Source of the DNA: Ceratodon purpureus
Taxonomy: Eukaryota; Streptophyta; Bryopsida; Pseudoditrichales; Ditrichaceae
Assembly: GCA_014871385.1 (NCBI GenBank)
Contig: CM026426.1
Span: 85,019,579-85,083,578 of the forward strand
Direction of reading: 5' to 3'
DNA length: 64,000 nt
A model generated the notes under the pieces. That model made no database searches. It was given only the letters and a program-made list of their open reading frames with translations, and was not told where the DNA came from. The position numbers were made by a program, and so were the translations under genes. Position 1 is the stretch's first letter. Every line of letters starts with the position of its first letter. Shown piece by piece: positions 1 to 64,000 of the stretch.

Positions 1-1500
1 GATATCTTCCGTTAAAGTGTTTATTTTAGACACTCACTATTGATTCAGCGATTACTTTCACTATCGAAGACGAACAAAACCGTACTACCAAAATGATTAA
101 CGCACATTATCGGAAATACCAATAACCGACAGTGTCACTAGTTATTCTAAATCTGATGTTTTATATATTGCATAGGATAAATGTACAAATGTCGTACAAG
201 ATCCAAATATTACATACTGTTTAAGTATTTTTTTCGGAAAGTATTTCGAATAATTATATAATAGTGGAATATAAGCCTAACGTCTGGAATATATTCACGT
301 AGTTAGAGAAAAAAATACGTGTACAGTATTATGCCAATATTTTTATTTATTCATTTAAATAACTTATTCTCATATCTCAAAACTAATCATGCTATTATAA
401 TAATTGAATATAAATTTTATTATATATCACACTACATGTAATAGGGAGTATTAGAATTCAAATTGAAGTAATATTTACTTCCTGAAATAAAATTTCGTGG
501 CGTACATATTTAGAACATATGTATAAACCCCTATAACACAAATTTAACATTTTTTTTCCCAATAATAAAATACCTACGCTATTTTTTTTTTTTTAAACAG
601 GAAACAACATAAAAGTTTGGGTCGACATTCAACATAATCATTTTATAAATCACAATCACTTCGTCACACTCAACCGCGATAAAAAAATATGATATGTATA
701 TCTTATTATACTGTGGTTTTCATCTAACATAGAATGTTCAGATGAAAACTAAATCTCAATTTCATGCAATGAGTATTTAAAAAACTAAAATAAAATAAAA
801 TGACATCCTGTCATCTTAGTGAATACGGTTACAGTATAATATATATTTTGTATTAATTCCGAGGTATATTGCTTTACTTTGAGTTGTACCGTGGAAAGTG
901 ATTATATCTAAAATTTTCATTTAGAAAGATGTTTGCACTAAGCATTATAAGACTCACGTCTTGTAAGAAAATGTATTCCACCTTTGTCTTAACGATATTT
1001 AGGACTAGGTTCTTGTTATAAGATAAACGTACATGCAGAGGATGCTTCCAACTACGATAAGTTAACGATTTTCTGCAGTGGAATATGTGAGATAATTCAA
1101 AATTGAAAGGAGCGTTCAGTATTTGGATCTTTTATGGTGATGAAACTGCACCGATTCTTGGTGACACTGACTGCGCGAGACTCATATTCGTATATCATTC
1201 AGTATTCGTACCGTCAACGTCACAACTTTGTGCAATCTTTACTTATTAGATACTAACATCGTATAATTCGTCGATGTACATGGTAAGCTATTAATCAAGA
1301 CTGAACCCAGTGTCACCAAGAGATAAAATATCAGTGTCACAATCTCAGTTCTTCGTACTACATATTTTTAACAGAGCATTTCTAAATATTCAATACCCAC
1401 ACACACTGAACTGAGTACGATTACACTACTTACCACTATAGTCACTTATGTTACACTCCGCCTCCTCGCCTAGTCCGCTATAATACTGCTTCAAAATCCA
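1..1500. other. AT-rich non-coding stretch
   Basis: There is no convincing reading frame on either strand. The sequence is AT-rich, with short homopolymers around 570-600. Copies of AGTGTCAC or its complement lie near 131, 1161, 1309 and 1333, the same word that is frequent in the MULE locus to the right, so this may be the flank or 3' part of that element. Confidence 0.6.
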
Positions 1501-2006
1501 CGATGAATCATCGAGAGTCTTCTCAGGTAACTATTGAAATAACTCCGGATGGACCTCGCCTTCTTGATTGCCTATCCCCTCGTCACGTGAACAGCACATG
1601 TTGTCCTTCATGCGGTTATGTTGCCGGCAGCGGAAGCAACATTGCGAAGAGGATGGTGGATCAAAAGGAACATCTACAGCACTAGGATCCGGGGAGTTAC
1701 TTAGAGGTCGACATGCTTGCCGGATCGTGGATACATTGCGAAAACACCCACCGAAAACACATACGAACAGAAAAGTACACCCCAGGATTGCTACCTCTAC
1801 AGAACCCAACTCGAGCCTCACTTCAAAAGTAAACATATTTGCAGATCAATCAAAACAACAAATGAAGACTCTAACATTTGAAGACAGTCGTTTACCCAAG
1901 GAGAGGAATCCCTAAAGTACCCTATCACACCCTATGAAATTCGAATATTCCAGGAAGAGTGACTAAGAAGTTTCAATCCTAACCCGGATTGCTTGCACTG
2001 CCTTGG

Positions 2007-5000
2007 TCAAAGTTTACGGGCGACTGGCGGACCTGAATGCTCTAGGAAGTCCTTTCTCCGACCCAATTTGAACCCTAACCCGTCATTTACACTGAAAAAA
2101 GCAGGTTCTCCTACTACCGGATGCACTATTCCTTCTCGCCTCTCTGCCTTCATTCTCCTCAAGCGCCCGAGTGTCAAGTTGAACTCAGCAACGAGGTGCT
2201 CCATCATAAAGGAATCCCCATTAACCTCCTCGGACAAGAGCATCACTTGCTGATACAAAGTGTTAGGCAGATCTTCTGTTCGACACCTTTGAGGGGCTTG
2301 ATTTGGTGTAACGGGTACGCTGGCAGAATCCCCGGATGGCGTGAAAGGGAAGTGTGACTCTACATTAGTTTGTCGACGAGGGGTCAGTAGCTGTTGTAGG
2401 CCTCTGTTCACAGTCCCGGCCATTCTCCCACAACATCGTGCAATAGTTCCTTCAGCAAGGTCTGGGTTCATCATGGTGAGGACCTTCACATGATGTTTGC
2501 ACATGTTACCCCGTTGTGCCCAAACGCAGTTGCACACTCCCCATTCCAAGTCAGGGTTATGTACCGTGTAACGTAGATGCCGATGCTCAGTGGAGGTTAC
2601 CAAAGCGAATCCACCCTCTACCTCCGGCAGTGTCATGTCAGTATCTGGTATTTCTCTCGCTTTAAGAATAGATTCAACTGTGATGTCTTGGAGTTTCTTA
2701 TTGTCCACGAAGCCGTTCTCCTTGCAAAGGTCCTTGAACCAATAGTGGTCGAGCACATCCTCCGTTAATGCAGTGATGCACCAATCCACTCGTCGCCCGG
2801 TCATCCTACTCCTTTCATACCGTAATATGGACTTCGCAAATCCGTGGTAACCCTCAATGGCCGCATTTGTGTCTTGACCGCAGTATTTAAGGTTCCTGAA
2901 TCCCACAACCCACATGTGGGCCTTCTCGACCCAGTACTCTTTCATGTATTCCCAGAACTCCATCTCCTGAGGATATTTTTTCTCTAATTCTTCAATGCGT
3001 GACTTTGCCCATTCTTGTCCCTCCACCCCAGGTCGAGAACTTTTGTCATACATCATTCCACCGAGCTCTTTCATAATAGCTGCTCTTCTAGCATGATCAG
3101 GTATTTTATAACATGAATTTTTCTGCCACGCCCTTCTCACATGCCAGAGACATAGCAAAATCGACGTTTCTGGCCATACCTCGCTGCAGGCAGTGTCACG
3201 ATACGGAATTAAGGATACATAACCGCATAGCACATATGGGACTTGAATCAACATGTGCAAAAGAAGTTATTGTTTCGACATAACACTTCGTGACACTGAC
3301 GCGGAAGCCGTGACATTCAGGTGACAGAACGTGACGTTTTTAACCATGGACCACTAAATAGTTCTATTGCAGTTGTGTTATAGAAATGTGCGACATTGTG
3401 CATCAGAGATGTAGGAAAGGGTGGACTCACTTTATCGCATTGATTTCCCCTTGTGCGCAGTCCACAATGAACGCAGCCGGTTTCCAATCAGGCTTATCTT
3501 CCACCATTCGTGCATTCGGTGCCCTCATCCACGGAGTGAGGTCCACTTCAGCACACTTTGACGTAAGGATGAATGCCACTCGGATTCCATTGTGCCATTC
3601 GTCGAAGACCATGAGTGTGTACAGTGGGAACTATGTCAAACAAACAATCCCAACCAGCCGGAGTTCAAGCAATTCTGAAAAAGAGATCAGTAAAAAATGA
3701 GCGTACAACAGTTCACACAAATTACAGTCACCCGTTTGAGCTTCATTTGCCGCGTATTGAGCACAACTCTGACGAATCACATAGTGGGTTACATAATGCT
3801 GACCTTTCTCTCGTTCGTTCCGAACGAGGCGTCTACTGAAACTGGCCATGCTGCAACATCATCTCTCGCTGCCACTCCGTTTGTATTCCAATTGTGAAAG
3901 GCATGTTCGAGCCAGTGAGTTCTCCGGGAACTATAGTGGGCTTCTCTTTATTTGGTTCGGTGTAGTAGAACACATTCTTGGGATTTCTCTGTACCCACAT
4001 ACGGACACTCTGAGCGTCGTTTTTGTGCAACATGTAAGTCTCTTGGGCCAACTTACCTGAGATATTGCGAATGTCCTTTGTCGTGAGAAACAAGTCCCGC
4101 GTGATGTCCTTCCCTTCCGCCTTATACTGCTTCAGCAGGTCAATATGCTTCCTTATGATCTGGTTTGGAGTGTCTCTACGCCGCAAACAGTCCTCGACAA
4201 ACGACCTTATCTCAGGAGATAGATGAGCAGAAAACGCGCTCCGATCTCCGATCTTCATACCTCCATGTACTATAAAACCGTCTTGGTTTACGTGCTTCTC
4301 CTGAATAATACAAATCTCCGAAATGTGCGGTAAATAAAGGAGCCGCTTCACTGTGAATTGTGCTTGGCAGTCGCTCTTGATTGAGTTCCCCCATCTCTTC
4401 TTGGAGTCACGTTTGATCTTTGGTCGTGGAATCGAGGCGTTGGTCTTCTTTTTTGGATCTGGAAATTCCGCATCCGGAACATCTTGACCCGGGTCCACGA
4501 CTTCCCTCGGTCCTACATTGCCGTCCTCCCCCGACTCCGGTGTCACAGATGCAGCAATCTCTTCCCTGAGCGCGTCTGCAGTGTCACAGAGTATTGATAG
4601 CAATGGTGGGAGACCTTGGGAGACACCTATACAATCGACTACGGAGGGACTGTCTGAAATCGGTAGAGCAGTCTGTGCTATAGGTGGCAGAGGTAATTGT
4701 TCCACAGTACAGCACCCACCTGACAACCCGCTGACGGAACTATGCGCGTGACACTGATGCCTGTCTGTCTGTGTCACAGGAGTCTGTTTTTTTTTTGCGG
4801 GGAGCATATTTCCGCGTTGGTTTTTTAGACACCTTTCCAGTAGGGGGAAGTGAAGGCTCGCAATGTTTCGCAATTCCAGGTAGAGCAGAAGGAAACTGGG
4901 GCTCCCCGGATTGAGGATGTACTGAAGCAGCTTCGGTGCTAGCAGTAAGAGGTGCACAAGGCAAACAGCCCCCTGCAGCTCCCTGCAGAAGATCTAGGAA

Positions 5001-5994
5001 TCCCTTCTTTTTCCTCGGGGCTCTCTTCTTCGGCGGTGCGACATCCGTTACACAGCCAGAGTCCGACGTAGCAGGACATTCAGAACATGCGTCTGCCTTC
5101 CCTTTTGCGCGTGACACTCTCTTCCTAGGTTTTATCGAAGGTGTCCCCTTGACGGTGACACTGGTCCCATTTGAAATTGGTACAGTCTTCTTCCTACTAG
5201 GCTTCTTCCTCGCAGGTACAGAAGCGGTACTGGTGTGATCTTCGTCCACTGGCAGCGCATTCAGGTCCGGAATGTCACGTACATTAGCAGTTTCAGCAGA
5301 GCCCTCACATGCCACTGCAGACAGAGTCTGTCCCTTCGCCTTCCTAGGACTTCGCCTCTTCGGAGAAGGAACCGGGTCCTGTACCATGCAGTCCATTGCG
5401 TCCGTGACAGGTGTCTTCGACTTGAATTTGCGTCTCCGCTTCCTTCCCGGTGAACTCTTAGTCCTTTTCGCTCTAGCTTTCCGGGTCGGGGCGAGTGTGC
5501 TGCCCTCAGGAACACAGTCGGGAACCCTAAGTTTTTTTTTAGGCTTAGGGAGGAGGTCCTCAGAGATTGGCTTCACAATATTTGAAAAATCCTTCGGTCC
5601 GTATTCGCATCTGAACCTGTGAAGGCAACAATAGTATTTGTCCATCTCGACTCATGTTGGGCTTACGGTTCTCCTTGTTAGCACGGAATTTGCACTGTGC
5701 ACCTTCTCGACCACACTGCATACCTTCAATGAAGTCCCGAACTCTATCAGTGGGAACATAGCATTGTTGAACTACGTGAGATTTCTTGTGCTCACCTCGT
5801 GGGGGACGATATTCGAGCTCCCAGCTCAGATCGCGCGGTCCGAAAATGCCTACAGGAGGGTACTGAACGCGGTCCTCGATTGCCTATAATAAGAGTTTAT
5901 GGTTGTCAATGCCACAGGGATCTACATCTAACCTAACACCATCGACGTCCATTGCACCTGGTAACACTGCGTTAATGCCCTCCTGGCTGCCCAT
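2007..5994 (-). pseudogene. Mutator-like (MULE/FAR1-type) transposase, broken
   Basis: A transposase gene on the minus strand. The N-terminal part starts near 5994 (ATG, MGSQEG) and runs into VPTDRVRDFIEGMQCGREGAQCKF. A Lys/Pro/Arg-rich region with repeated PRKKK-like basic patches (5645-4740) follows. Then come a FAR1-like DNA-binding segment and the start of the MULE domain (4957-3833), ending TEWQREMMLQHG then VDASFGTN. The next exon reads FPLYTLMVFDEWHNG (about 3627-3437). The last exon (about 3209-2007) holds LCLWHVRRAW and a SWIM zinc finger (CNC, eight residues, CKH; about 2550-2490). An intron of about 230 bp is supported by donor GTGAGT near 3438 and acceptor CTGCAG near 3210, which restore the family's frame. 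Reading frames break near 5650 and 3840, so the copy is probably dead. Such proteins cut and move DNA in the nucleus. Confidence 0.75.
3210..3438 (-). other. MULE intron rich in GTGACA words
   Basis: This intron interrupts the MULE transposase domain between INAI and EVWPETS. It contains GTGACACT twice (complement near 3192, direct near 3290) and the cluster GTGACATTCAGGTGACAGAA near 3310. One copy lies directly before the acceptor. Confidence 0.6.
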
Positions 5995-7052
5995 CGAGAT
6001 GACGATGTTATAGTCCACAGACGTAGACAATCACCCGGATCCTAAATGCCGCAACCGAGGAATGGGCTTTGGGTGGTATCACAGAAACCCTACAGAGGAA
6101 CCGTAGTGACATTGATCATCTGCAGAGACGGCGTACATCTCGTGAGTACCAAACGACCCCACAAACATTACAATCACAATGCATTCCCGGTATCAGAGAA
6201 GAAGAATACGTCGACAAAGAAAAACGATCGAAGCCATCAATCGACAACTGACGAGGAGCGAAGCGAATACAAAAACACTAGAAACCTAGACACTGGAAAC
6301 CCTAGTCGAGACATGTTGGGCGATGCGGGTTTATGACGTCAGTGTGACGTCATATTTTTCGGGCTCACAGTGAGATCGTCGGTTCCAGTGTCTCAGGGTC
6401 AGGCAGTGTTTAGTGTCACATGCGTCTCGACGGGCGGAGTGTCTCGGGGCTCGTAGTGTCACGCGTGAGGTGGATTTTACCGGATTCGCGAGTTACGGAA
6501 TCCGTCGGATCGAGGAAAACGCAGGTGGCCACCGTGGCGGGCCACGGCGCACGACGCGACGGGACCCACCATTCCTACATGCGAAATAGCGTTCTCCCAG
6601 GAATTCGTAGCCCTTGAAACCCTGACCAATACACTTTGAGAGCGGAAACAATGCCCAGGCAGCGCGAGGTTCCGGCATTTCACATAGAGCGGTCCATTTC
6701 AAATCATTTGGGATTACAAGAATATCCTTGTGGGTGTTTCTGATGTTGCGGTGGCCGGATAAGACAAGCAAACACAATAGGGAAACATCACAGGCAGTAT
6801 GGTCGAAACTCATACTTGCCTTACCCCCTTATGGTATGATTTGAATTTCAGCCTCAACGTGAATTCGTATCCATTTGTTTTATTAGCATGTAGATTTTGA
6901 GTATTCGAGATGCACTTTCTTTTATTAAGGTTCATTTATCTCCGACTTGGCAGAGTGTGGATGGTCGAAATGTGAGAGGCCTTGTGCAGCAACCAGAATT
7001 CGGAGAAGAGTTCTACCATAGAGACAGGGAGAATCCTTAGTCCCCGGATTTT
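5995..7052. other. Upstream region of two divergent transposase genes
   Basis: I see no supported gene here; the short frames overlap on both strands. The stretch 6317-6470 is dense in AGTGTCAC, CAGTGTGACGTCA and AGTGTCTC words and probably forms the promoter or terminal region of the MULE on the left. The boundary with the CACTA element on the right is not visible. Confidence 0.45.
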
Positions 7053-17546: not shown

Positions 17547-19905
17547 ATGGCGGTTCGGGTGTAAATGTCATGAGTAACAAACTTCGTGAGAATTTGGGGC
17601 TACCCTTTCCCAAAGCAGCTCAATTTATTCTACAAATGGCCAACAACGCCCCAGTCACACCATTAGGCATCCTCCCTTCGATAGCCATCACTACACATGG
17701 GGTGACAACGCCGGCAACCTTCGTCATTATCGAAATGCCGGATAGAAGCAATTTCCCCGTTATTTTGGGACGCCCATGGTTGCAAGACATGGACGCCGTC
17801 CATGACTGGTCACGAAATCAGATACGTATTCACCGACATGGAAGGACCATAGTCATCCCGGTAAACAGTTGCGTCACTCGTGCTAAAGCTAGTCAAAGAA
17901 AAATGGGACTCTCATAATCTACGTAGACTTCAAAAAGCTCAACGCCACCACAAAAAAGGACCACTATCCTCTACCATATATGGAGGAAATTATTGATGAG
18001 ATGGCCGGACACGAAATGTACTCCTTTCTAGATTGCTTCTCGGGATATTATCAGGTCGCCATGGCCGACCAAGACAAGAACAAAACCGCCTTCTCAACAG
18101 AGTGGGGGCCTCACCACTTTGAGTGGATGCCGTCTGGTGCCAAAAATGCGCCCATGACTTTTCAACGCATTATGGAACTCATCTTCCGACCATACTTAAA
18201 GAAGTTTTTTTGCATCTATCTTGATGACGGAATAGTCTAGGGGTCCAAGCAAGATCACGTTACTCACCTTTGCCAAATCTTTGATGCCTGCAGGGCCAAC
18301 GGGGTCAGCCTCAACGCCGACAAATGTATATTCCTGTTTTTTGCGGGCATCATTTTAGGCTATATAGTCTGCAAATATGGTAAACTACCTGACCCCAAAA
18401 AAATCCAAGACATCCTCAACATGACGGCACCTGTAAATTAGAAAGGGGTACAACGACTCCTTGGGTTGGCTCACTTTAACATGATATACATTGAGAAATT
18501 AGCCCATATCACCGCACCCATTACCGCCCTAAACCATGCACGTTACAGCTATCCTCAAGACTGGACCCCGGCCGCCCAAGACGCCTTAGAAAAAATAAAA
18601 GCAGGATAGTCCAATGCCCCTATCCTCATTGCTCCTAACTGGTCAAAACCATTCCATGTCCACACAGACGCCTCTAATATAGCCGTCGGTGTAATGTTAG
18701 CACAGAATGTGACAAGGAAGCATGACCAAATTGTCTCCTTAACTTGGCCGAATGCAACTACCCAACTACTGAACGAGAAGCCCTAGCCATGATCTATGCC
18801 GTCAAAAGATTCCGCCATTATCTGCTTGGAAATAAATTTAGATTCATTGTCGACCACCACAGCTTGTCTTACTTAGTCAACCAACCCCTTGTCAGCGGCC
18901 GAGTGGCCCGCTGGATCATGATCCTCTTAGAGTACGACTTCGAGGTCGTTTATGGCCCTGGCAAACGCCACATTGTGGCCGACTACCTGTCTAGAACACA
19001 ACACGGACAGCAGAAGGCATCGACGATTCCTTTAACGATCCATATATCCAAGCCGCCGCAGTCACCACCGAGTCAACCAAGGATTGGCGCCATTCCTATT
19101 GCACTACTTAAGCAAAGGACTTTTACTTGATAATGTTTCGGGCACCAGAAGGATTAGTTTTGTCCGCAACACGTTGCCTTATGAAGTCGTCAATGGCCAG
19201 CTTTATCGCCGTAGGATAGATGGGGAAACCAGGATCTGCGTTCCAACATGGCAACAAGAAAGCATCATGGCTCAACTCCATGACGGCCCCACTAGTGGAC
19301 ACCAAGGCCTTGACACAACCATCAAGAAAATATTAACCGCATGATACTGGTAGGCCTACATTACAAAAAGACGTCCGTGAATACATCAAACACTGCCATG
19401 CTTGCCAAGTTGCCACTACTAACTTCCAATATCAGGGCGGAGTACCGTTAAAATCCATCCCACCTCTCGGACCTTTCCAGAGATGGGGGTTAGATTTTGT
19501 AGGACCAATTCGGCCCGTTACCAGACAAGGATTTAAATACATCTTGGTCGCCAATGCTTATACTACTAAGTGGGTCGAGGCAAAATCCCTTCGCACTAAT
19601 ACCGCAGTCGTCACAGCCACCTTCATATACGAACAAATCATTACCCGATTCGGATGCCCTTTGGAGATCATGTCCGATCAAGGATCACACTTTGTCAACT
19701 CCTCGATAATCATGTCATCAAGCACCGCACGAGTACAGTTTACTATCCTCAAGGAAATGGACAAGCTGAGTCGACAAACAAAACGTTGATCAATATGATC
19801 CGTTGTTTCGTTCACGCCAACAAAGCCGACTGGGACGACAGCTTGCCAACCGCCCTTTGGGCATACATGGTCGCTACGGGGGTAGCTTATAAACGTGCGG
19901 CGACC
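17540..19905 (+). pseudogene. Ty3/gypsy pol: protease, RT, RNase H, integrase, broken
   Basis: The order is the Ty3/gypsy one. The protease begins VDGGSGVNVM (17543). The RT lacks its N-terminal part and resumes IIYVDFKKLN near 17915; it has FLDCFSGYYQVAM and the catalytic YLDDG near 18220. Next come RNase H (HTDASNIAVGVML near 18660, then TEREALAMIYAVKRFRHYL) and integrase (GLDFVGPI near 19490, DQGSHFVNS near 19680, GNGQAESTNK near 19755, giving the D, D and E residues). TAG codons at 18238, 18439 and 18607 and several frame changes (near 18750, 19085, 19345, 19700) kill it. It ends at about 19905 without a visible LTR. The RT start appears deleted internally. Confidence 0.8.
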
Positions 19906-38437: not shown

Positions 38438-38459
38438 GAACCCCTAGTCAGCCAGTTAG

Positions 38460-42549: not shown

Positions 42550-42806
42550 CTGAAAAATGAAGGACACATTCCAAGAAAACATGGGTGATCAATCGCATGC
42601 TCACAATTCATACTTGCTCTAGTGTACAAATGGAGACACAATAAGACACCCACGACAGAACACAGAGTCTCAACACTGAGTTCCGTTCTCATATATTTAA
42701 AAGGAGGAAAACTTTATTTACTGAAAAAGTCTAAATACATGAAGATCCCATCGGCGGGCAGCCGACTGAATCATGTGCATGCTCTCTAAAACAGTTTCTA
42801 CATCTA

Positions 42807-43576: not shown

Positions 43577-43808
43577 CTGGAGTGACAGAAAACGAAGCAG
43601 AGGACAAACGTGACGGTTAGGATGACGGTCGGCGGACAGCCGACTTGCAAGCAACATTATTTGAAAAAAGGGAAAGCGAACAACTTGGAATTTACCAAAA
43701 ATTTATTCATATTTGGCAGTACAAACATCTAACACAATCCTAGCGCCCGATCACTATACTAAATTATCAATGCAGGCATTTAAAAGATGGACTGGGCCAC
43801 CGCCTGAT

Positions 43809-45449: not shown

Positions 45450-45497
45450 CGCCCTGCAAAAGTAGAATCACAAGATTAGACCATGAGATTCTCACTC

Positions 45498-46155: not shown

Positions 46156-46997
46156 CAACTTACCCACTCTCGGAGGCTGCCATAACGTTGGCGGATGGCC
46201 TTTCACCGTCGGCGAATGACCTTCGAACAGCAGCCGACGCGCGCAGGTGAAGGAGCCGACGCCCTCAACCCTAGCAGCCGACGCAGAAAAACCTAGCAGC
46301 CGACGCGACCTCTGCGGAGCACTGAGAAGAGGACAAAAGAGAGCTGAAAAAGAGAAGGCTGGAAATGAGGAGGAAATGTCGGGGGTGGCGGGTGTATACC
46401 CTGCAGACCCCCACCTCCCGAGACTGAATCGTCACGCCCGATGGGTCATGACGTATGGCTATGTACATACCATCCATGCATGGATGGTCATCCCTAACAT
46501 CTGTCCCATCACGCCACGTAGGATGATGATGGGACGTCTTTTGACCTTTTTTCAATCCGTCACCAAGTCATGATGGCGTGGGCATGTGATGTGACAGCTG
46601 CTCCAATCGCCACGTTCAAATTCGTAATAATGAACTAACATTGTTGTGTGACGGTGGGGGTATCTCGCCGCCATGATGGGATCTTGATCTGTCCAAGGCG
46701 CGCAAAATTGAATTCGATTCTGGCGCCAATTTGTACTCCTGGGAATTCATAACTAACCCCCCGTCAGATGCGCATACTTCATTCTATTTCTGTCATTGCA
46801 CTTTCGATTCCCTCTGAGAGTGCTCCTGACGCACACGTTTCTTGAGAGGACCGTTATTATTCCCGCATGTGCTTAACTGTCCCGCACCTTCTGTTGCCGT
46901 TTCTGTTGTCTTCGTCTATCGTTTCTGATTGGACGGTTGAGAGGAGTCTCTGATTGGACAGGTTAGGGACAGCATACTGCTTCTCAACTAAGGTCCC
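46156..46997. promoter_or_regulatory. Divergent promoter region
   Basis: No gene is visible. Half motifs AGCCGACGC recur at about 46230-46310. A perfect 18-bp palindrome, CCATCCATGCATGGATGG, lies at 46471-46488. The region separates the leftward and rightward gene sets of the 13.5-kb element. Confidence 0.45.
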
Positions 46998-49900
46998 GTG
47001 CAATTTCTGTCGGCGGACGTGGCCGTCATCGTCGGCGGATGCTATTTCTGTGCACACTCCGAGTCGTACGACTCGCGTCGGCTGCCCGCCGAGTCGTCTT
47101 CGTTGTCGGCGGATACATTTTACTCCGTCGGCGGGGACACTTCCTGTCGACCCTGTCGGCTGTCCGCCGACGAGGTCTTCATCTTTTATCCAATAGAAGT
47201 AGAGCCGATCCAGACGTTTCTAAGGAATGGCCGATCCGGGCGGTGGAAGGTTAAAAAGGGCGTTGTCGTGGCCCTTACTCATTCTGGGCTCTATTATGCA
47301 GGCAGGGCAGTGATCCAACGTGTTGTAGAATTTGATCCTATAGTGGTGGTGGTAAAAGTGATTGACGTTTCAGACAACATGGAAATGAATATACCATTTC
47401 CGGATGAGGGTGTGAAGTCCTTGAGCAACTGCTTAGGACAAATGATATTGTGGGAGGCGGCCGACCTCAGGCCTTTCGGAGAGGTGGAAGACGATGACAT
47501 CAACGCCGTCGGCTGCCCGCCGACGGATGTTGAAGAAGATGTCAAGCCCGTTCAAGAATTCCTGGACCTCGCAGAGCAGATGGAAGTTGCGCTCCTCGAG
47601 GAATCCGGAGGCTCAAAGCGTTGTGTAGCCGCTGGAGTCATTATGGAATGCTCTCCTAAAGGAACGTGGGAGGGGTTCTTGATTCCTCACAACTTCTTTC
47701 TAATAGTGAGAGTGTCGTCCGTCAATCCAGAATTCTCTGAAACACCTGCTTTCTGCGAGTTACCGGATGTGTTAACGATCGGGTGTGCTGTGGGGCGATT
47801 GGTACTTTGGAGTGGATACAAGGTATGTCCACTTGTGAACGGCGCGTTGGCTGGCACATGTCCCGTCGGCTGCCCGCCGACGGAACCTCACTTGGGGAAC
47901 GAAGATGAAGAAATTGATGAAAGCAACTCCGCTCCGTCTGAGCAGGATCTGGGGACTAGGTCTCCAATGAATATCAGCAGTGACGACGATGTGTCTAAAC
48001 AAGGGGAATCCGACGTAGAAACAGATGATCATTGTTGGGGTCCGGATTCCGGGACCTCGGGTACTCCTTCCACTCCAGATGCTTCTTATCCTGACCGCCA
48101 CCTCTGGAGAAATCGGTATGTCGAACTTCTTAATGATGATCTATCAGTCCGTGGTAGAGCAATGATTCAAGTATGTTTACCGGACGAGGCATGTGATGAT
48201 GAAGTCCTAGGGGATACAGAGGTTGGGGTTCTCTTCGTCTCTGAAGACGATCATCTGCAGATGACAACTCTCAGATGGCGTCTGACTCACACTCGGTTAG
48301 AAGGGGGTCACCTTCTCTCTGATATAATTACTTACTGCTCCGAGAATTTAGCAGACGCCGACGCGGACGATGGTCAGGATGGTGTCCCGAAGAATGCCTA
48401 TCGATCGGTGCGGAGGAAAGTTCGCGAAAAAGATGATGTCTCTTCCACTAAGCTTTGTCGAATGGTTGTCCCTGCTGAATGCCGCTTAGTGAGCTCAAAG
48501 CGCTGTTGCAAGGACCGATGTTGCCAGACTTTTAGATGGGAAGATACTGTGAGTATTCGTCGTAAATTTTACGCAACAACATTCGAGGCGAGGCGAGAGA
48601 TGTCCTTCGCTGTGCAAGGGCACTTACATACTGTACCCGGCAAGCGGAAGCTCTATGTTACTCTTGCGAACGTTGACGTATGTGAAGTGGCGTGGTATAT
48701 CATTCACGGAGTATCGAAATCCGCGTACTACAGCTACAAGGCTTCGGCCCGAAGTGGTCGTGTCAATGGGAGTCACGGAAATTCCGGTGTACATCGTCCC
48801 CAGATTCACACAATCCAGGCCCGCACAACGTTGACCACTATCGTTAATGAGAATGCCGACCAAATGCCCAATGAGTTTCGGATGATTGGCAAGAAGAGAG
48901 TGGCCGCGCTCAAAGTACTCCCGTCTGCGATGAACTGGAATCACATGCGCGAAATGGCCAACGCCGTAAGTTCCTCCTCATCTTCTTTCACTTTGGATAG
49001 TTTACTGAATTGTAGTGATTACTATCGTGGGCTGCCCGCCGACTGGATGACGAACTTCCCAACTGATCGACCTCACTCTGTGCTATTCAGGTCAATGAGC
49101 AGTGCAACGCGAAGCTGATTTCGCAGTCCTCCGTTAGTCGCATGAGGAAGGAGTACTTCCGCAACGTTGAGGTCAAGGCAGTAGGAAGTAATTTCTCCAA
49201 GTGCACTGAGTGTGACTTCCTCGTTGAACTCATTGCCAAGTATCCAAGAGGGTCGGACGAGTGGCAGAGCTTGACAGAGGATAGGACCAGGCATTTGAAC
49301 TATCAGCGAGCTTGTCGCAACATTTATTACGGATGGACAACCCAATCTATACAGAGTCCTACTGAGTTCCTATGCATCATACATGATAAGATGGACACAT
49401 CGAAAACAGCGATCCCCCGCATGCAACGTATCACGAAGGCTACGGCAGGGCTTGGTCAAATTCCGATTTCCTGTACTGGAATGCTGACTCACGGTCACGG
49501 AGATGGCGCCTACGCACACTATGCAACTGCCCTGTGGCCAGGAGACCCAAATTTCACAATCTCCTCGTTGTGCAGGGTATTCCGTGCCTTGGAGAGACTA
49601 CCTGTCCGGGAGTCAAAAGCACTCTTCGAGGCACCGCCACAGAATGAATTCTTTGCAGCGCTAATGCATGGATCGTCACGTTGCATCCCCTCAATTCCAC
49701 CTTCTAGAGATGAGCCACTCACTCCACCTCTGCCTGGTAGGCCTGTTGTTCCTTTGCCGAAGAAGTTGTATCTCCAGCTTGACAATTCTGCGAAGGACAA
49801 CAAGAACCGGTTTCTTCTAGCATTCTGCTCGTTGCTGACAGCGAGGCGAATATTCAAGGAAGTTACAGTTGGTTTCCTGATTGTGGGACACACACATGAG

Positions 49901-51103
49901 GACATCGACGCCCACTTCAGTCACCTATCGAAGCTCATTAAGCAAAAGAACACATACTGCCTTGCCGACCTTATGAAGGCATTCATGGATTCTCAGAAGA
50001 CAGTTGCCTTTATTCCAGAGGTTGTTCAGGAAGTGGCAGACTTCAAAAGTTATGTTGCTGATTTTCATCACGACGGAGGTAATGCGATAGAAGGTCACAG
50101 TGAAATGCATCTTTTTAAGTTCTATGTAGTGGAGGATGGGGAGGATGCGGGGTGGCCCGTGATGAGGTACAAGAAGCGTGCAACTGATCCGTCATGGCTT
50201 CCACCTGGCAAACCCGTGAAAATGTGGAGGGCAGACAAAGAGGGTAAACCACGTTTGCCCGTCGGTGATCCCAAACCGGTTCCTCATAAGCACTTATGGG
50301 GTAGTGTTGAAGTCGATGAGGGCAAGAAGAACGCGGATAAAGAGGTGGCAAGGGCAGCGGAGTGTTCAGAGAAGAGAAATTTCATTAAAAGTGGATTATC
50401 TAAGTACATTGAGTACTGGAGAACTGGCATGGCTCGGGATAAGAAATACGCACAAGACATGTTACCATATGTACTGTATTGGGAGCGAATTTTAAAGGAG
50501 GTCAACGAGCCACTGCCCCCCAATTCCGCCACCTTACAAGAAGGATTCTGGCCTATCACAGACTGGAAGCGGGACCACGTCACCACATTCGATGCAGAGG
50601 ACGAATATATACCGGATCCGGATATTCGTCCCGGTGACGAGGATGAGGTGGAGCCCTATCCTTTCTGTGGTCCGAAAAACTCTAGGCCGAAGTCTGTGTT
50701 TAACCCATATCGTGACGTTTTACGTGGCGATTGGGTTTTCTGTCGTCCGTGTAAGGAAGACCACCTACCCATTTGGATGGGTAGGGCGATAGAGCATGTT
50801 ATAACAGAGCCTGGTCCTAATTACGGTAAGTTCAAGGTTGAATGGTGGACTCCGATGAAGGGCAAGAAGGAAGGTAAGAAGAAGGTTGCGAGAGAGTGCT
50901 GGACAAGACGGTGGGAAAGGGAGTTGACTCTTGCGGAGTGGGTGGAGTGTAAATCCGTTGTATACACTCATAGGACCAAGAAAACTACGCATGAGGGGCC
51001 CCCAAAGTCCCATCTAATACCCGAAGATGTTGTGATTGCTGCCATGGCAAACTTCGAATCGCATGAAATCTCGATGAACTGGAATGACAAGGAGGAAGAC
51101 TAG
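46998..51103 (+). CDS. DUF7869-type transposon protein, apparently intact
   Basis: Two exons with intact phase: open from 46998 to 48965 (donor GTAAGT), intron 48966-49090 with a palindrome copy, exon 49091-51103. The start is unclear: no ATG occurs before about 47379, and 47000-47175 is crowded with GTCGGCGG words, so the true start may lie in an upstream exon. Middle part: acidic, then a Cys-rich zinc-binding-like block (ECRLVSSKRCCKDRCCQTF, near 48480) and RRKFYATTFEARREM. The second exon has the DUF7869 signature (LYLQLDNSAKDNKNRFLLAF near 49770, VGFLIVGHTHEDIDAHFSHL near 49875), a nuclease-like, transposase-like fold with conserved Asp residues. VGCPPT at 47508 and 47865 is palindrome-encoded. 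Total about 1,320 codons without an internal stop, so it is the likely mobility protein. Confidence 0.72.
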
Positions 51104-52451
51104 TCGGCTGCCCGCCGACGATTGTGATCTTAGCTGTAGAAGATGTAGCTAGTGATGGTTTCCTCTGTAAACGTTATAGTTGAATATTGTAAACACTGTG
51201 ATTCCTTTGAATAAGAATTGTATTCTACCGTAGACCCAATACTAGTCATGTATTACGCTTTGTCTTCTATTTGTTGTTCTGATGCCTTACTTTTCCTTCT
51301 TCGGTGGTCGTCGGCTGTCCGCCGATGCCTCTAACCATGTTAGATAAGCATCATGAACGGTGACTTTGTGAGGCTGGTCTATATTGTATGGCCTGTGATT
51401 TTTACGGTGGACACTGTTACTCTAGTCGGTTGCCCGCCGACGCTTTCCACAAAATTGGTAGAACCACTATGCGCTTTGATAAACTGATCAAAAATATTTA
51501 TCCATTTCATTATATTCTTATCGGAGTACAACGGTAGTGTTCCGACCTTTACATGTTACTTTGTATTGTGTATACATCAGAGATGCCACTACTCCTAAAG
51601 CCTTAGTAACAAATGCTAACCATGAATTCTACAACTATCCGAGTGTCTGAAGCAGCTCTATTGAAAACGAGCTGGACAATTCTAACACACACTAATTCAC
51701 CCTAAAGCCAAAAAACCAAAAAGCTGCATATGGTCGCCAACGCCATGCAGCGATCAGTCCTTCGCAGTAGATTTGGCTCGGACAGCACTACACCCAGTAT
51801 CGACGGATGGATGCACGGATCCAAACGACGAATACGTGGACTGCGGGCTTGCGTTCCCTCCGCACCACTGATCTTGGCCAGAGCACCGACTTCCAGCACC
51901 CTCCGAGATGTCGTAAGCTTCGTCAACAAGGCGGAGCCACCCTGCAGTTGACATGGTTTGCGTTGACACTTCCCCTGTGTGGCTGAAGTGAACACTGCCA
52001 ACACTCCCGGACTCCTCGGACTCCTTGGACTCCTCGAACGTCAGTGGGAAGGCGATGCCGGAAGCGTCAGAGATCTCCAACAACTCAATGGTGTGAGCAA
52101 TACTCCAAAACCACCGCGCACCTGGCTGCAGAAGACGTGGGATGTATTTGAAAGCTGGAATGGCGGTATTGCGAGAACGGGCGACCACCGCCCTAGACCA
52201 TGGCCGGAGCTCCTCGAGTTTAGCCGGTGTCTCCTGACCAAATGGTCGCTCCACATTGCTACCCCGCCTCCCCATAACGACAAAATATTGGACAATATGC
52301 GACTAACTTCTACAGTATGCGACCTGCTTCTACAGTATGCGACCTTCTTCTACAGTAGACAGCCGACGAGTTCGTCTAGTAAACTGGTAAACGTTCTAGT
52401 AATCCACTTCTCTAGGGTTTTCGGGACGACTAATTGCCAACGTCGACCTAG
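51104..52451. other. 3' region of the DUF7869 gene
   Basis: Palindrome copies lie at 51103 (overlapping the stop codon), 51309 and 51425, with a half copy near 52360. The only long frame is on the minus strand at 52275-51754 and is listed separately. Confidence 0.5.
51754..52275 (-). CDS. Hypothetical protein (173 aa), uncertain
   Basis: An ATG-initiated frame encodes a Ser/Glu-rich protein (LTFEESKESEESGSVGSVHF) of unknown family. It overlaps shorter frames on the plus strand and has no recognised domain. It could be an exon of an additional gene of the element or chance. Confidence 0.25.
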   Translation of the reverse strand: MGRRGSNVERPFGQETPAKLEELRPWSRAVVARSRNTAIPAFKYIPRLLQPGARWFWSIAHTIELLEISDASGIAFPLTFEESKESEESGSVGSVHFSHTGEVSTQTMSTAGWLRLVDEAYDISEGAGSRCSGQDQWCGGNASPQSTYSSFGSVHPSVDTGCSAVRAKSTAKD

Positions 52452-52750
52452 TCTAGTAGCCCCTACTCCCCTACTCGGCTGGTAGCCGACTAGGACTAGC
52501 CTACTCATCATTTGCATCATTAGGACTAGGACTTATTTACTCATCATTAGGACTAGTAGCCCCTACTCTCCTACTCGGCTGGTAGCCGACTAGGACTACC
52601 TTACTCATCATTTGCATCATTAGGACTAGGACTTATTTACTCATCATTAGGACTAGTAGCCCCTACTCTCCTACTCGGCTGGTAGCCGACTAGGACTAGC
52701 TTACTCATCATTTTTATCACTAGGACTAGGACTTATTTCCTCATCATTTT
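52452..52750. repeat. 100-bp tandem array
   Basis: Nearly three units of 100 bp each carry the variant palindrome CTCGGCTGGTAGCCGAC (starting 52474, 52574, 52674) and TAGGACTAG words. They lie near the right end of the 13.5-kb element. Confidence 0.9.
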
Positions 52751-53038
52751 TATATGTATTTCAGATTCCAGAGGTCGGTTCAGTGAGGAAGAGGTTGGCT
52801 CTCCTAGTCGGCGGCCAGCCGACTACAAAGGACTTCCATTCGTTGTGACCGTGAATACTGTTCATTCTAAACGACGACTCCGGAGTCTTCACAGACGGAC
52901 ACCCCAATGTGAGATGTCTGGGAGTTGTGTCCACTCAGCGGGTCGCTGACGATCTTCCCTTCCCCCGCTTCACTTCACAGATCCACATTTTGCAGAGCAA
53001 GTATTTCCTTTTATTAGAACAGATAGATTTCTAAGGAT

Positions 53039-55127: not shown

Positions 55128-55160
<33 letters not shown>
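55128..55160 (+). repeat. G33 homopolymer
   Basis: Thirty-three consecutive G mark the left edge of a GC-rich cluster. Assembly length in such a run is unreliable. Confidence 0.8.
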
Positions 55161-55161
<1 letters not shown>

Positions 55162-55164
55162 ATT

Positions 55165-55623
55165 ACCCGCGGCCGCGACGGCCTCGTCCCCACGGCCGTG
55201 GGCCGTCTCCGCGAGGGGCCGTCCGCGGGGACGGCCCTTCGACCGCGGCCGTGATCGTACGGCCGCGGGCTGTCGCCGACGGGGCCGTCTCCAAGGCCGT
55301 CTCCGCGGCCGTCCTCGCGCGGTCGGCCGCCATCGGACGGCGACAGCCGCGGAGACGGCCGCGATCAGAGGGCCGGAAGCCGCCCCCTCGGGGGCCGTCT
55401 CCAAGGCCGTCCCCTCGGCGTCGGCCGCCATCGGAAGGCCGTCGCCGAGGAGACAGCCCGATCGGACGGCCGCGGAGGCACAGGCCTCCGCGGCCGTCAC
55501 CGTGGCCCCCGACCCGACGGCCCCCAACGGCCGTCGTCTAATTCGGGACGACGGCCATTGGCCACGGCCGTAGGATCGGGGGGCGACGGCCCTAGGCTCG
55601 GGGGGACGGCCGTAGGGTTGGGG
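55165..55623. repeat. GC-rich GGCCGTC cluster upstream of the gene at 55895
   Basis: Dense GGCCGTC and GACGGCC words with CCGCGG linkers, the same composition as at 32741, 38460 and 62800. Arg/Ala/Pro-rich frames are by-products. Confidence 0.75.
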
Positions 55624-55647
55624 GCCGTCGCCATATATGGCGACGGC
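55624..55647 (+). promoter_or_regulatory. TATA-like core in a perfect palindrome
   Basis: ATATAT is flanked by perfect arms GCCGTCGCC and GGCGACGGC. A pyrimidine-rich leader and a G22 tract (55769-55790) follow before the ATG at 55895. It is the likely core promoter. Confidence 0.55.
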
Positions 55648-59551: not shown

Positions 59552-62539
59552 TCAGGCCACATAATCGCTGTCGTCCTTCACTTCGGCCCCACTAGGACCG
59601 GAAGAATCGTATTCGTCATCGCCATGATCGCTCTCGCGCACCTTCTTCACCCTCGCCTTAGTCTTCTTCTTTGACTCGAATGGGTTCAGGAATTTCTTTG
59701 GGCCATTCGGGTCATCCAAAGGAGTTTTTGGCTTCCCAGGATTGAAAGCCAACACGTTCTGAGTCTTGTCTACAGCCTTTCGCTTGGACGTGGCTCTAGC
59801 AGGGGGTTTCTCAGGAAATATGCCCGGTTTTCCCAAAGCCAACTTCGGCCCAAAGAGATGCCCAATTGGAAGTCCGTCATCAGTAGAGAGGATGCCCGGG
59901 TCCGCTTGTCGGGTTCGGGCCAATCTCTTCCTACATTTCTCAGCTACTTCAGCAGCCTTAGCATCTGCCTTCATTTTTTTAGACAACTCAACCAACCTCG
60001 TGGACGATTCGAACCCACCAACTTGGACCCTAGTCTTTGCAGTTCCAAACAATGTCCGAGATGCACCCGATACGGGTACGGGCACATCCTCCTTTGTAGT
60101 GGGTGGAACCATATCGTCCTTCAGGCGGTTATAGTTTGGAGAAACAACCTTAGAAGTATCAAGGGTGGGGTCTTCCTCTTTCTTTGGTACGACCAAATCC
60201 ACGGTAGTATGAGAGGATCCTCCCCGCAGAATCTTATCACTGTTTGATAAACCATCTCCATTCAGAAAAGAGGCAAGATGAATCGTATCCTCCTCGTTGG
60301 TACCTTCTTCTTCGACATCATCATACTCGAAAGCACGCTCCATCGGCGCAGGAGAACAACGGGATTTTCCTTTCGGAGAAACCTCGAGGTCGTCGACTGG
60401 GTTGTCAATGGGGGGGTCAATTGATAAATCGTCGAAGGGTGCATCAACATCAGACTCACTAAAGTAGTCAACGTCCTCGGTTTCCACGGCCTTCCGATCC
60501 ACCTTCCCCTCCAACTCCCCGTAGAACCTGCCTAAGGCACTCAACTTGGACTGGGAAATTATCTTGGAATTTGTATACTCAAACACGAGGTCATTAGCCC
60601 TCTCCGGAAGTAAACGGTTTCGCTTCCTGTTGTGGACAAAGGAGTAGCTACTCCAATTCCGCTCGCATGAAGAAGAAGACAGGGGCTGAGCTAAAATCCT
60701 TTTTGCAATTGGAGAAATGAATTTACCAGCGGATCCGTATATATCCCACCAACCAGAAGGCGGCAATTGTGACTTAGAGGAGTCACGTACGTCACGAAAC
60801 GGAGGATAAGCTTCACGAAATGCAAAGAACTCTTCTATGACCACTTCCTTCAGTGTCGGAGGAACCATCGACAACAAGACCTCCTTCGTCGATGCCATCG
60901 CATCAGTATCATTGTGAAGGTCCTCATCGTCAATAAGATAAGGGTTTAGAAGCGCAGCAGCACACTGTAAGGGTGATTTAATCATGGCTTTACGCTCATA
61001 GAATAAGTCCTCGCACAAATCAGCATTGTCAGAGTCTAGTTTGAAGGGCTCATGGCGTAAAGAGAGAACATGCTTCTCAAGGTTGCGGAGAACGACGTAG
61101 GCTTTATCCAATGCCGATTCCTTTGCATCAAACTCTCGTAGGGCATATACAATGGGACTCGTCATCCACTTGAAGTTTGCACATTGCTCCCAGAAAACGT
61201 CATCCAAGACAACCCTCTTAACATCGCGTGAGATCTTCGCTTTGTCACGGGCAGATAAGGTCTTCTTCGTTTCGTAGTTTCTCCAGTTACGATCCACAAC
61301 GCTCTGCTCCAATGCTCCTCGAACCTTCAATAGACGCAAAATCATAATGTAGTGCGATGCAAACCTAGTCTGACCAGACATCAGCAAGCTAAGTTTTGCC
61401 TCGTGCTTTCGAAATACCGAGAGTGGCATTTGCCTTATCTTTATGAACTTAACCAAGTTCTTAGCCCGATCTAGGAGCTCCTTCACCCACTTCATCTTAC
61501 TCCAATCCTCCAACAAAAGGTCCATCGCATGGGCAGCACATCCTTGGACATTTATGGATGGATAGAGTGCTTGGACCAACTTTCCGGCATTAAGCATCAC
61601 CGGAGCATTATCGTAGCATACTTGAATGATGTTCTGTTCTCCAACTTGTTGGATAAACTTCTCAATGACGGTCGCTACAAAAACGGCATCCTTCTCTTTC
61701 CCACTCGTGTCAACGGCTCCCAAGAATAACTCACCAGCAGGAGATACTAGCATTGCGTTTATTAGAGGGCGACTGCTTACAGAAGTCCATCCATCGAGGG
61801 CCAACATTTCCCCGTACTTCCTAACACTTGAAAAAATCCTATCATTCAAGGAAGTCTCCAAATCAGTCCTTCCTTGGGCTAGTAAATTTGTTCGGAGATG
61901 GTGGAAAGATGGAGGTGTGTAGGATCTCTTCATGTTGGACGTCTTCAACACCGCGTCCTTGAAAGAGGCTTTCCGAGCCACGTTAAACGAGATACTGTTC
62001 TCGTAAAAACATGTGGCCCATGCTTTGTCGCATTCCCGCCTCTGAGTCTCTTCGAAGCCCTCTTGAAGGGTAGATTGCCTCTTTGCCTTCAAAGGAGGAA
62101 ACTGTCCACTACCTTCCCCCGGAAGAGTGGAAATGAAAGGTACACCCTCACCAAATAAAACGGGTTCATTCTTCGGAGTTGAAACCCGGGATCCAGCGCA
62201 TGAGTCCACATCCATGGGAGTGTTCACTCTCGGGGATATATTGCCACAAGTCACGGGGGAAGTACTCTGCTCCGACATGAATATTTTGGAGTCGTTGGGG
62301 AATTTGCCACCGCAATTCTTGAACAAGGACTGTATAGCGGGTGACAAATTAGTGCAACGACCTACTCCACTAGTCCGTACCCCTAGAACTTTGTCATAGC
62401 CCAAATGACTGAGCATCCGCTCAATCCTCTTTGCGAAAGTGTTCTTGCATAGCATACATTGAACCATCTCAGTCTTCTTCTTCTCCGCATCGATCATATC
62501 GACTTCGGTATACCATGGGGAGTAACTTTTAGACGCCAT
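59552..62539 (-). CDS. hAT transposase with BED-type zinc finger, intact
   Basis: An uninterrupted frame of 995 codons from ATG at 62539 (MASKSYSPWYTEVDM) to TGA at 59552. The frame is open 96 bases further upstream but without ATG, and a TATA box lies about 205 bases before the chosen start. Domains: an N-terminal BED-like finger (CMLCKNTF, then HL), a DUF659-like catalytic part (LALDGWTSVSSRPLINAML, VCYDNAPVML, GCAAHAMDLLLEDW, the Asp residues of the hAT RNase H fold), and the C-terminal dimerisation domain (SSSSCERNWSSYSFVHNRKRN). A long acidic and basic tail follows the catalytic part (EYDDVEEEGTNEEDTIH; KKFLNPFESKKKTKARVKK). The absence of stops suggests a young copy. Confidence 0.85.
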   Translation of the reverse strand: MASKSYSPWYTEVDMIDAEKKKTEMVQCMLCKNTFAKRIERMLSHLGYDKVLGVRTSGVGRCTNLSPAIQSLFKNCGGKFPNDSKIFMSEQSTSPVTCGNISPRVNTPMDVDSCAGSRVSTPKNEPVLFGEGVPFISTLPGEGSGQFPPLKAKRQSTLQEGFEETQRRECDKAWATCFYENSISFNVARKASFKDAVLKTSNMKRSYTPPSFHHLRTNLLAQGRTDLETSLNDRIFSSVRKYGEMLALDGWTSVSSRPLINAMLVSPAGELFLGAVDTSGKEKDAVFVATVIEKFIQQVGEQNIIQVCYDNAPVMLNAGKLVQALYPSINVQGCAAHAMDLLLEDWSKMKWVKELLDRAKNLVKFIKIRQMPLSVFRKHEAKLSLLMSGQTRFASHYIMILRLLKVRGALEQSVVDRNWRNYETKKTLSARDKAKISRDVKRVVLDDVFWEQCANFKWMTSPIVYALREFDAKESALDKAYVVLRNLEKHVLSLRHEPFKLDSDNADLCEDLFYERKAMIKSPLQCAAALLNPYLIDDEDLHNDTDAMASTKEVLLSMVPPTLKEVVIEEFFAFREAYPPFRDVRDSSKSQLPPSGWWDIYGSAGKFISPIAKRILAQPLSSSSCERNWSSYSFVHNRKRNRLLPERANDLVFEYTNSKIISQSKLSALGRFYGELEGKVDRKAVETEDVDYFSESDVDAPFDDLSIDPPIDNPVDDLEVSPKGKSRCSPAPMERAFEYDDVEEEGTNEEDTIHLASFLNGDGLSNSDKILRGGSSHTTVDLVVPKKEEDPTLDTSKVVSPNYNRLKDDMVPPTTKEDVPVPVSGASRTLFGTAKTRVQVGGFESSTRLVELSKKMKADAKAAEVAEKCRKRLARTRQADPGILSTDDGLPIGHLFGPKLALGKPGIFPEKPPARATSKRKAVDKTQNVLAFNPGKPKTPLDDPNGPKKFLNPFESKKKTKARVKKVRESDHGDDEYDSSGPSGAEVKDDSDYVA

Positions 62540-62743
62540 TGGTGCACTTGATAGATCGCCCGGAAATACTTCAAAAAATCGGGGTACCACGTCCTCAAGA
62601 GAACTAGAGCCTCCGAAGAAGCTCCAATTCAACACACTTCAGAACGCCGCCGTTCAGTATGCAACAGATACACACGTATACTAGTGCAACTAGAAGCACA
62701 TGAAGTACAATTGAGAAGTGTAATGCCAACTTCCAGGAGGGGT

Positions 62744-62752: not shown

Positions 62753-62794
62753 ACAGCCCATGAAATGCCAAGGGGTAAGCCCTAAAAATCAAGG

Positions 62795-63310
62795 GAGGAC
62801 GGCCGTCAAGGCCGTAAGTCAAGCGAGGGGCCGTCCGATCATGGATTGTCACGGCCGTCGAAAGAGCCGTCGCCGGGGACGGCCCCTCCACCGCGGCCAC
62901 GGCAAGGGGCCCTCGCCGGTGACGGCCCCCCCCACCGCGGCGACGGCAAGGGGCCGTCGCCGAAGACGGCCCCCCCCTCCGCGGCGACGGCAAGGGGCCG
63001 TCGCCGGGGACGCCCCCCCCCCACCGCGGCCACGGCAAGGGGCCGTCGCCGGGGACGGCCCCCCCCCTCCGCGGCGACGGCAAGGGGCCGTCGTTGGGGA
63101 CGGCCCCTTCCCGACGCGGCCAACGGCCCCCCCCCCCCTCCGTGGCGACGGCTGCACCCTCACCTGCAACCCCTCCCCCGCGTACAAGGTGTGGTTTCAC
63201 CCCGAGGTGAAACCTATGCGGGTGATTTTTTTTTTCTAAGTCACAGGACGTCCTGTGGCGCTGGCGGACGTCCGCGGACGTCCTCACGTCCCGAGCGTCC
63301 CGGACGACCG
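62795..63310. repeat. GC-rich cluster upstream of the hAT gene
   Basis: Repeats of about 38-75 bases with GGCAAGGGGCCGTCGCCG, GGGGACGGCC and runs of C, made of the same GGCCGTC word as the clusters at 32741, 38460 and 55165. The right edge has GGACGTCC palindromes (near 63247, 63269 and 63277). Frames on both strands are compositional. Confidence 0.8.
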
Positions 63311-64000
63311 CGACAACCCTGGAGAGGAGCCAATGCAAATCTGTCAACGGCACAGGAGCTGAGGACAGCTCCAGAGCAGAGGGAGGATAGTCACGGGTAT
63401 CAGGTATGTTCCAAACCACTGTTGAATTCAGACAGTCAGGAAAGGAACAGTAGGTTGCGTGAAAAACGAGCAGTAAAAAGTAGCAGTAAAAATCAAAAAG
63501 TTATCAAGCAGTAAAAAAAAACAATTCGAGCACTAAAAAATAACGGTAGAAAGTTAAAAAGTTACTAGCCAGTAAAAAGTAATGGTAAAAAGTTAAAAAT
63601 TTACCAGTCAGTAAAAAAACAGTGTAAAAGGTAACAGTGGAAACTAAGGGTAAAAATGCGAACAGTAAAGATGAGATAAGAAAACAGTAAGTGGCTTAAG
63701 CAGAAAATTGAGAAATGGAAAAATTGAAAAGTTAAAAAAAAAAAAATGAATGGATAGTAAAGAACCAGGAGACAACCTGTAGGTAGAAGCTTGCAAATTT
63801 GTAATGTATGGAAGCTTGAAAAACTGAGACTATGCTAGAACTTGCGAAACTAGGGGCAGAAAAACTATCTACAGTTGGACAGTAAAGACTGACAGGTCCC
63901 AAAGGAACCAAAGTGGAAGGGTGGCAAAGGGATGGACTGAACAGGAACCAGGAAACAGGAGGACTAGCATCCAACGGACCAGAGGAGGGCTGAGGACAAG
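63311..64000. other. Dispersed repeat with CAGTAAAAAG words
   Basis: No supported gene. CAGTAAAAA-type words recur at 63470-63640. GAGGAGCCAATG near 63324 also occurs near 32632, beside the GC cluster of the other convergent pair. Confidence 0.5.

Follow-up and report, generated by a model that had tools for sequence, protein, structure and literature searches.

Transposons of Ceratodon purpureus carry element-specific arrays of repeated DNA words, one of them a helix-phased 22-bp palindrome, that suggest private protein-binding sites

Why should neighbouring transposons in a moss genome each be studded with many copies of a short DNA word of their own? The question arises in a stretch of 64,000 nucleotides of Ceratodon purpureus (hereafter the window), which covers positions 85,019,579-85,083,578 of contig C6 (CM026426.1; 110.5 Mb) in an assembly of 362 Mb; the accessible text of the genome paper puts the genome at 360 Mb and U and V at more than 100 Mb each (PMC8000587). 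The window is crowded with transposons, and Pfam searches identified a Transposase_21 domain (E 6.3e-55), a hAT transposase and a DUF7869 protein (E 9.9e-44). Further open reading frames (ORFs) are, going by their translations, what we take to be gypsy-like and MULE-like. A CACTA-like element has inverted duplications of 32 and 40 bp within 7488-7817, and (T)CTGGAC/GTCCA-type sequence lies in inverted copies at 33681-33734, 34018-34060, 39874-39916 and 53278-53331; these may be the terminal repeats of nested elements or a further word.

The initial annotation had proposed that four words, here called W1 to W4, are concentrated at separate loci and change with the element. The counts bear this out: within the window all four are far above chance, nearly confined to their elements, and dispersed within the element to which each belongs. 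In a blind scan of the window for every dyad word with 6-bp arms and a spacer of 0-8, W3 (16) and W2 (11) ranked at the top, against a maximum of 2 in resamples that preserve local dinucleotide content (n=20). Nor are the words equally common in unrelated sequence. Thirteen 10-kb control stretches at round coordinates (L012-L024, of which L021 is one third N) were nearly empty: W3 was found at up to 2 mismatches in 0 of 13 and W2 at up to 4 mismatches in 1 of 13, and the totals over all 13 were 2 for CAGTGTCAC and 7 for GGCCGTC. The sole W2-positive stretch, L021, is a satellite with 31 sites. Counted over the whole assembly, as had been called for, W2 gave 646 exact sites and the W3 17-mer GTCGGCTGCCCGCCGAC gave 987 (503 forward and 484 reverse), with 0 for the reversed controls. 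Among the matches listed (50 for W2, 100 for W3) most are clustered, the W3 clusters with recurring internal spacings and with at least three W3 matches isolated, and the clusters that were fetched contain one family each. The titles and abstract openings of the literature that we consulted held no description of these words.

The W1 word, AGTGTCAC, has 12 of its 14 window copies within 1-6.5 kb. Extending the analysis to the left, we counted 26 copies in 14.0 kb (the 7 kb left of the window plus window positions 1-7000) versus 2 in the remaining 57 kb, while Markov-1 resamples of the 14.0 kb averaged 0.67 with a maximum of 4 (n=200). The element and its parts are as follows:

1..6597, right part of the W1 element, which starts at -6511 (6.5 kb left of the window), is 13.1 kb in total and holds 26 AGTGTCAC
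2007..3266, reverse strand, transposase-like ORF, without Pfam match
6288..6597, reverse strand, right terminal inverted repeat, with two W1 words 43 bp apart
6598..6606, target-site duplication CAGGAATTC

The termini are inverted repeats of about 310 bp that are 96% identical, with the 9-bp target duplication at both sides. This is the anatomy of a MULE, and the element seems to be MULE-like on these grounds; the Pfam scan of it matched no MULE family, and the transposase-like ORF has a CxCx7CxH that we presume to be SWIM-like. The words run from terminal repeat to terminal repeat, with two in each repeat and 22 of the 26 outside the repeats; 12 of the 26 are inside open frames of at least 180 aa (three frames, in both orientations). 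W1 is barely palindromic, its dyad being limited to the 7-bp core GTGTCAC.

W3 is a gapped dyad with GTCGGC-N5-GCCGAC as its constant part. Allowing up to 1 arm mismatch, we counted 30 sites within 40161-52823 and a single one in the rest of the window, and the spacer is practically always 5, other spacers from 0 to 15 giving at most 2 inside the array. The region comprises:

40161..52823, W3 array, 30 sites (up to 1 arm mismatch) over 12.7 kb
40495..43616, reverse strand, three ORFs with a NIF (FCP1-like phosphatase) domain, of which two pass Pfam's cut-off and the third narrowly misses it
45541..46151, tandem array of 75-bp units, each with a single W3 site
46992..49118, forward strand, 708-aa ORF, with five W3 sites, read in two different frames as VGCPPT and RRLPAE types
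49067..51103, forward strand, ORF with DUF7869 (E 9.9e-44)

The NIF ORFs are apparently cargo of the element. Open frames of at least 180 aa contain 17 of the 30 sites, and 10 of these 17 are in frames held open by the 75-bp array, which may not be genes at all; for both W1 and W3, the words in open frames occur in several reading frames. Three further W3 clusters (L031, L032 and L033) are 96.5-98.1% identical to the window element over their main stretches, and each has about 2.5 kb with an extra W3 site (L031 1003-3543, L032 3853-6390, L033 983-3520) that the window copy does not have near 45180. In these three copies the arms show no excess conservation over the rest (0.969 v 0.976, 0.961 v 0.955 and 0.975 v 0.961, a comparison that counts overlapping array matches); the copies are too young for selection to show. 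W3 spacings have no 10.6-bp phase (R 0.20). A 30-bp candidate for the terminal repeat of the W3 element was rejected, as its flanks do not match. A telomere-like TAGGGTTTC/TAGGGTT array lies at 53038-53092, not far from the right-hand limit of the W3 array.

W4 is arranged differently again, with 64 of the 69 window copies of GGCCGTC in four GC-rich blocks (picked by us) at the outer ends of two pairs:

32900..33500, outer left block of the first pair, 22 GGCCGTC
38450..38900, outer right block of the first pair, 10 GGCCGTC
55160..55640, outer left block of the second pair, 19 GGCCGTC
62780..63150, outer right block of the second pair, 13 GGCCGTC
59552..62638, reverse strand, hAT transposase ORF (DUF659, Dimer_Tnp_hAT), inside the second pair

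Markov-1 resamples of the four blocks, in the same order, averaged 0.78, 0.48, 0.56 and 0.37, with maxima of 3-5 (n=300). GGCCGTC is no palindrome; W4 is subterminal and asymmetric, and asymmetric subterminal repeats are known from other transposons. Inside the first pair there is a protein-kinase-like ORF at 35089-35637 (Pkinase E 3.9e-5, below the cut-off).

The most informative of the four is W2, the 20-bp palindrome TACTGCCGTTAACGGCAGTA, of which the window has 5 exact copies. When up to 5 mismatches were permitted, 16 sites were found (0-4 mismatches), all of them in 27602-31395, inside a decayed element whose second gene, called gene 2 here, is interleaved with them:

19878..31795, W2 element, decayed copy, with left end GGGGGTAGCTT and 87% identity to a full-length copy over 20410-25876
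20410..25876, reverse strand, transposase side of the element, without Pfam match
27602..29479, W2 array 1, with 12 palindromes, ahead of the gene-2 exon at 29621
29621..30172, forward strand, gene 2 exon 1 (our numbering), with two in-frame stops, and with GNHQLQAW where other copies have GNHRLQAW
30251..30999, forward strand, gene 2 exons 2 and 3, with stops in exon 3 of the window copy
31099..31395, W2 array 2, with 4 palindromes, in the interval from gene-2 exon 3 to exon 4
31661..31795, forward strand, start of gene 2 exon 4, from tblastn

The copy, from 19878 on, presumably sits within a gypsy-like pol frame; in the window neither its right end nor a target duplication on that side was found. 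The W2 matches listed fall in 6 places. Alignment shows 5 of them to be copies of a single element, and L010, the sixth, has 666 bp in common with the window at 72%. Two copies are full-length, at 18.6 and 18.9 kb; their ends are similar over about 40 bp, and both have flanking matches, of 10 and 11 bp (some G being common to the ends). They therefore show the target duplication of about 9 bp and the terminal inverted repeats by which Mutator-like elements are recognised, and the W2 element seems to be one, going by this anatomy; its three ORFs had no match to a MULE transposase domain, or any other, in Pfam. Full-length copies and the window are 87% identical on the transposase side (20410-25876) and 64% over the block of gene-2 exons 1-3. 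The sites lie in the same two noncoding blocks, one preceding the exon at 29621 and the other separating exons 3 and 4, with totals of 16 sites in the window, 22 in L008, 22 in L006 and 15 in L005. W2 is thus a family-specific motif enriched in the noncoding DNA of its element, as in the VANDAL/VANC system of Arabidopsis. The initial description of the words as long, palindromic and filling introns fits W2 in full, but not W3, a gapped dyad that occurs in open frames too, nor W1 with its 7-bp dyad core and its place in terminal repeats, nor the asymmetric, subterminal W4; introns are a matter of W2 only.

The W2 site has sharp limits. Across six copies we collected 89 sites with up to 5 mismatches, 49 of them exact, and derived the consensus GTACTGCCGTTAACGGCAGTAC, in which each of 22 positions has the consensus base in 83-99% of sites, while flanking positions all stay at or below 55% (n=89). 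The outermost two of these 22 positions, which were not used in picking the sites, have the consensus base in 79 and 74 of the 89. In L010, 4 of 9 sites have a paired change in both arms (positions 3 and 18) and 3 of 9 a change at position 18 alone. A W2-like palindrome also occurs once per unit in the L021 satellite, a 210-bp repeat on C6 at 20.0 Mb (20000001-20006572) that adjoins an N stretch and whose 30 whole units are 99% homogeneous; nothing in it was recognisable as element sequence. Its variant, TACTGTCGT-CA-ACGACAGTA, is the same in all 30 whole units aligned, with both arms changed (positions 6 and 15) and the centre altered on one side only. The unit length of 210 bp is close to 20 helical turns.

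Spacings between neighbouring W2 sites are mostly unequal, and when pooled they show a phase. We used the 79 neighbour spacings below 500 bp from six copies, excluding L009, a near copy of L005. Pooled, these have their best period at 10.6 bp, the helical repeat of DNA, within a range of 5-40 bp (R 0.706, n=79). Because the copies are related, the spacings are not independent; the 42 distinct spacings gave R 0.55, and collapsing all spacings into 22 classes (medians 42, 63, 68, 86, 95, 98, 106, 117, 126, 138, 149, 158, 181, 192, 212, 231, 236, 240, 266, 308, 337 and 468 bp), among which those of 63, 106 and 158 bp contain 42 of the 79, gave R 0.602 with the best period again at 10.6 bp (6-30 bp; jitter P 0.0008). 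For single copies, R at 10.6 bp was 0.85 in L008, 0.81 in the window, 0.76 in L006, 0.70 in L007 (4 spacings), 0.65 in L010 and 0.42 in L005, and the best period was 10.6 bp in only 2 of the 6, L006 and the window (10.65), lying elsewhere in the other four. The pooled phase is the pattern that proteins on one face of B-DNA would impose.

We also asked how W2 fares as copies diverge. The flanks of the words have largely lost their alignment between distant copies (window-L008 and L005-L009 still align), and where the gene-2 exon block is down to 64% identity between copies, near-perfect 22-bp palindromes survive amid noncoding DNA without much alignment. For directed comparisons among four copies, a site with up to 2 mismatches was called kept if a site with up to 5 mismatches lay within 15 bp of its aligned place: 130 of 195 sites were kept versus 22 of 1134 non-site 20-mers (21 of these 22 from the closest pair, window-L008), a contrast that is overstated because the aligner anchors on sites and because about one place in five is, by our estimate, near a site by chance. 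Identity within versus outside common sites was 0.88-0.93 versus 0.53-0.66 in four diverged pairs and 0.993 versus 0.985 in L005-L009, the within-site values being inflated since sites were picked by their likeness. With these limits, the comparison supports the view that W2 outlasts its flanks, as would be expected of protein-bound DNA. Conservation between copies, on which the proposed function had been made to depend, exceeds that of the flanks in W2, which persists where they are lost, but not in W3, which in its young copies is no better conserved than its surroundings.

Which protein might read W2? Gene 2, which bears the sites and whose last exons weakly resemble a DNA methyltransferase, is the candidate, and we infer that it is the likeliest reader. 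In tblastn searches, L006 and L008 each had the complete set of L005 gene-2 exons, L007 had those from exon 4 onward (the rest being N), and the window had them as far as the beginning of exon 4, the later, methyltransferase-like exons not being found there; none were found in L010. The C-terminal pieces of two copies matched N6_N4_Mtase at E 2.8e-4 and 0.001, below Pfam's cut-off, and a profile of four copies had six matches up to E 1 in the PDB, all of them methyltransferases (E 0.13-0.23). At what we read as the place of the catalytic DPPY-type motif expected of a beta-class N6_N4 DNA methyltransferase, where no tool gave a significant match, the four copies have EFPDG, DFPDG, NLPDG and DFPDG; that gene 2 binds DNA rather than modifies it is a guess, as this placement is our own reading. 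A search with the joined gene-2 exons of L008 found 0 of 7449 candidates at E 0.001. We had taken the GNHRLQAW of exon 1 to be ParB-like, an assignment that found no support: of 26 database relatives none matched a ParB family at E 1, and no ParB structure was matched up to E 10. The model of exon 1 built from these relatives was poor (pLDDT 51.5). Phage ParB-N6_N4 methyltransferase fusions, as far as the available part of their description goes (PMC12704722), possibly have the same domain order as gene 2, for which the tool match (weak) concerns the methyltransferase part alone.

Taken together, these observations make it probable that each word is the binding site of an element-specific DNA-binding protein that acts on its own family only. 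The competing account that survives best, and that we consider possible if somewhat doubtful, holds that each transposase simply binds these words as its usual terminal or subterminal repeats, of the sort found in Ac, Spm and MuDR, that these have multiplied inward and that anti-silencing plays no part. The two W1 words in each terminal repeat of about 310 bp, and the 64 of 69 W4 copies at the outer ends of two elements, are what this account predicts; it sits poorly with the 15 W2 sites of full-length copy A, which are 7.8-10.8 kb deep in 18.6 kb with none near the ends, with the scatter of W3 across 12.7 kb, and with the 22 of 26 W1 sites outside the terminal repeats. Unlikely, in our judgement, is a reading in which a host protein reads the sites or the words are by-products of silencing (a host repressor, a source of small RNA, a centromere-type box). 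The once-per-unit palindrome of the C6 satellite, where element sequence is not recognised, speaks for it, but a related element could be the origin of the satellite, the word differs from family to family, and we reason that the long upkeep of near-perfect sites for a host repressor would be useless to the element. Functionless spread by micro-mobile palindromes or gene conversion, like the small palindromic repeats of bacteria, is very unlikely: it would account for words in unrelated contexts and open frames, for words in tandem units (75 bp) and for the lack of excess conservation in W3, but the helical phase, sharp limits and persistence of W2 would not be expected from it. A role for the W2 palindromes as RNA hairpins of the gene-2 transcript is scarcely credible. 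The sites are indeed present in an intron and ahead of exon 1, and going by its sequence each could form a short hairpin, but a 10.6-bp spacing has meaning for double-stranded DNA and not for single-stranded RNA.

If the words are indeed binding sites of element-specific proteins, their many copies would let such a protein coat or loop its element and so act on its own family alone. The W2 protein would be a symmetric, presumably dimeric, binder of GTACTGCCGTTAACGGCAGTAC, placed mostly on one face of the helix over two noncoding blocks that flank gene-2 exons 1-3, and its likeliest purpose would be to protect the element, or gene 2, from silencing so that it stays open, which is what VANC does for VANDAL. 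For W1, transposase binding is probably part of the word's job, because the word is also in the terminal repeats. A fuller scenario, hardly likely in all its parts, is that a captured bacterial-type protein, methyltransferase-like and perhaps non-catalytic, became in a Mutator-like family the reader of helix-phased 22-bp palindromes and thereby set up an element-private nucleoprotein domain, while other transposons have words of their own and a satellite took up a variant.

Several known systems bear on these readings. The TnpA protein of En/Spm and the Ac transposase are element-encoded and read many short subterminal sites; W4 is arranged like these sites, whereas W1-W3 are unlike them in being spread through the element or central. 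VANDALs, for their part, belong to the MULEs, and so, it seems, do the W1 and W2 elements. According to the available parts of two reports, VANC proteins act through a short motif found in introns as well as other noncoding parts of the element, and a related family has another motif (PMC5735166, PMC10398659); many motif copies in noncoding DNA and a motif that differs by family are likewise what we see here, so that the VANC precedent named in the initial annotation fits closely. In the same sources the VANC motifs are asymmetric, 8-9 bp long and in tandem repeats, whereas W2 is a 22-bp palindrome at mostly unequal, helix-phased distances, and gene 2, set against VANC, looks methyltransferase-like. 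The long terminal inverted repeats of Mutator-like elements are described, in the text available, as transposase-binding sites (PMC3310237); W1 words sit in such repeats, with 22 more sites internal. The best account that the sequence patterns suggest, by analogy with these systems, is that several kinds of transposon have arrays of private binding sites of the VANDAL/VANC sort. To call them an undescribed set of codes was too strong, as VANDAL motif arrays and subterminal transposase sites are of the same kind: private motif arrays are the known part, and the long helix-phased palindrome is the new one.

If this account is true, private motif arrays would exist in several kinds of element of one genome, probably that of a bryophyte, and the helical phase would be a physical signature by which such sites could be found from sequence alone. 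Long symmetric sites of this type could also serve targeted epigenome work. The VANC principle would then extend to large plant transposons more widely instead of being a speciality of Arabidopsis, and it would become testable how large transposons remain active on what is probably a sex chromosome.
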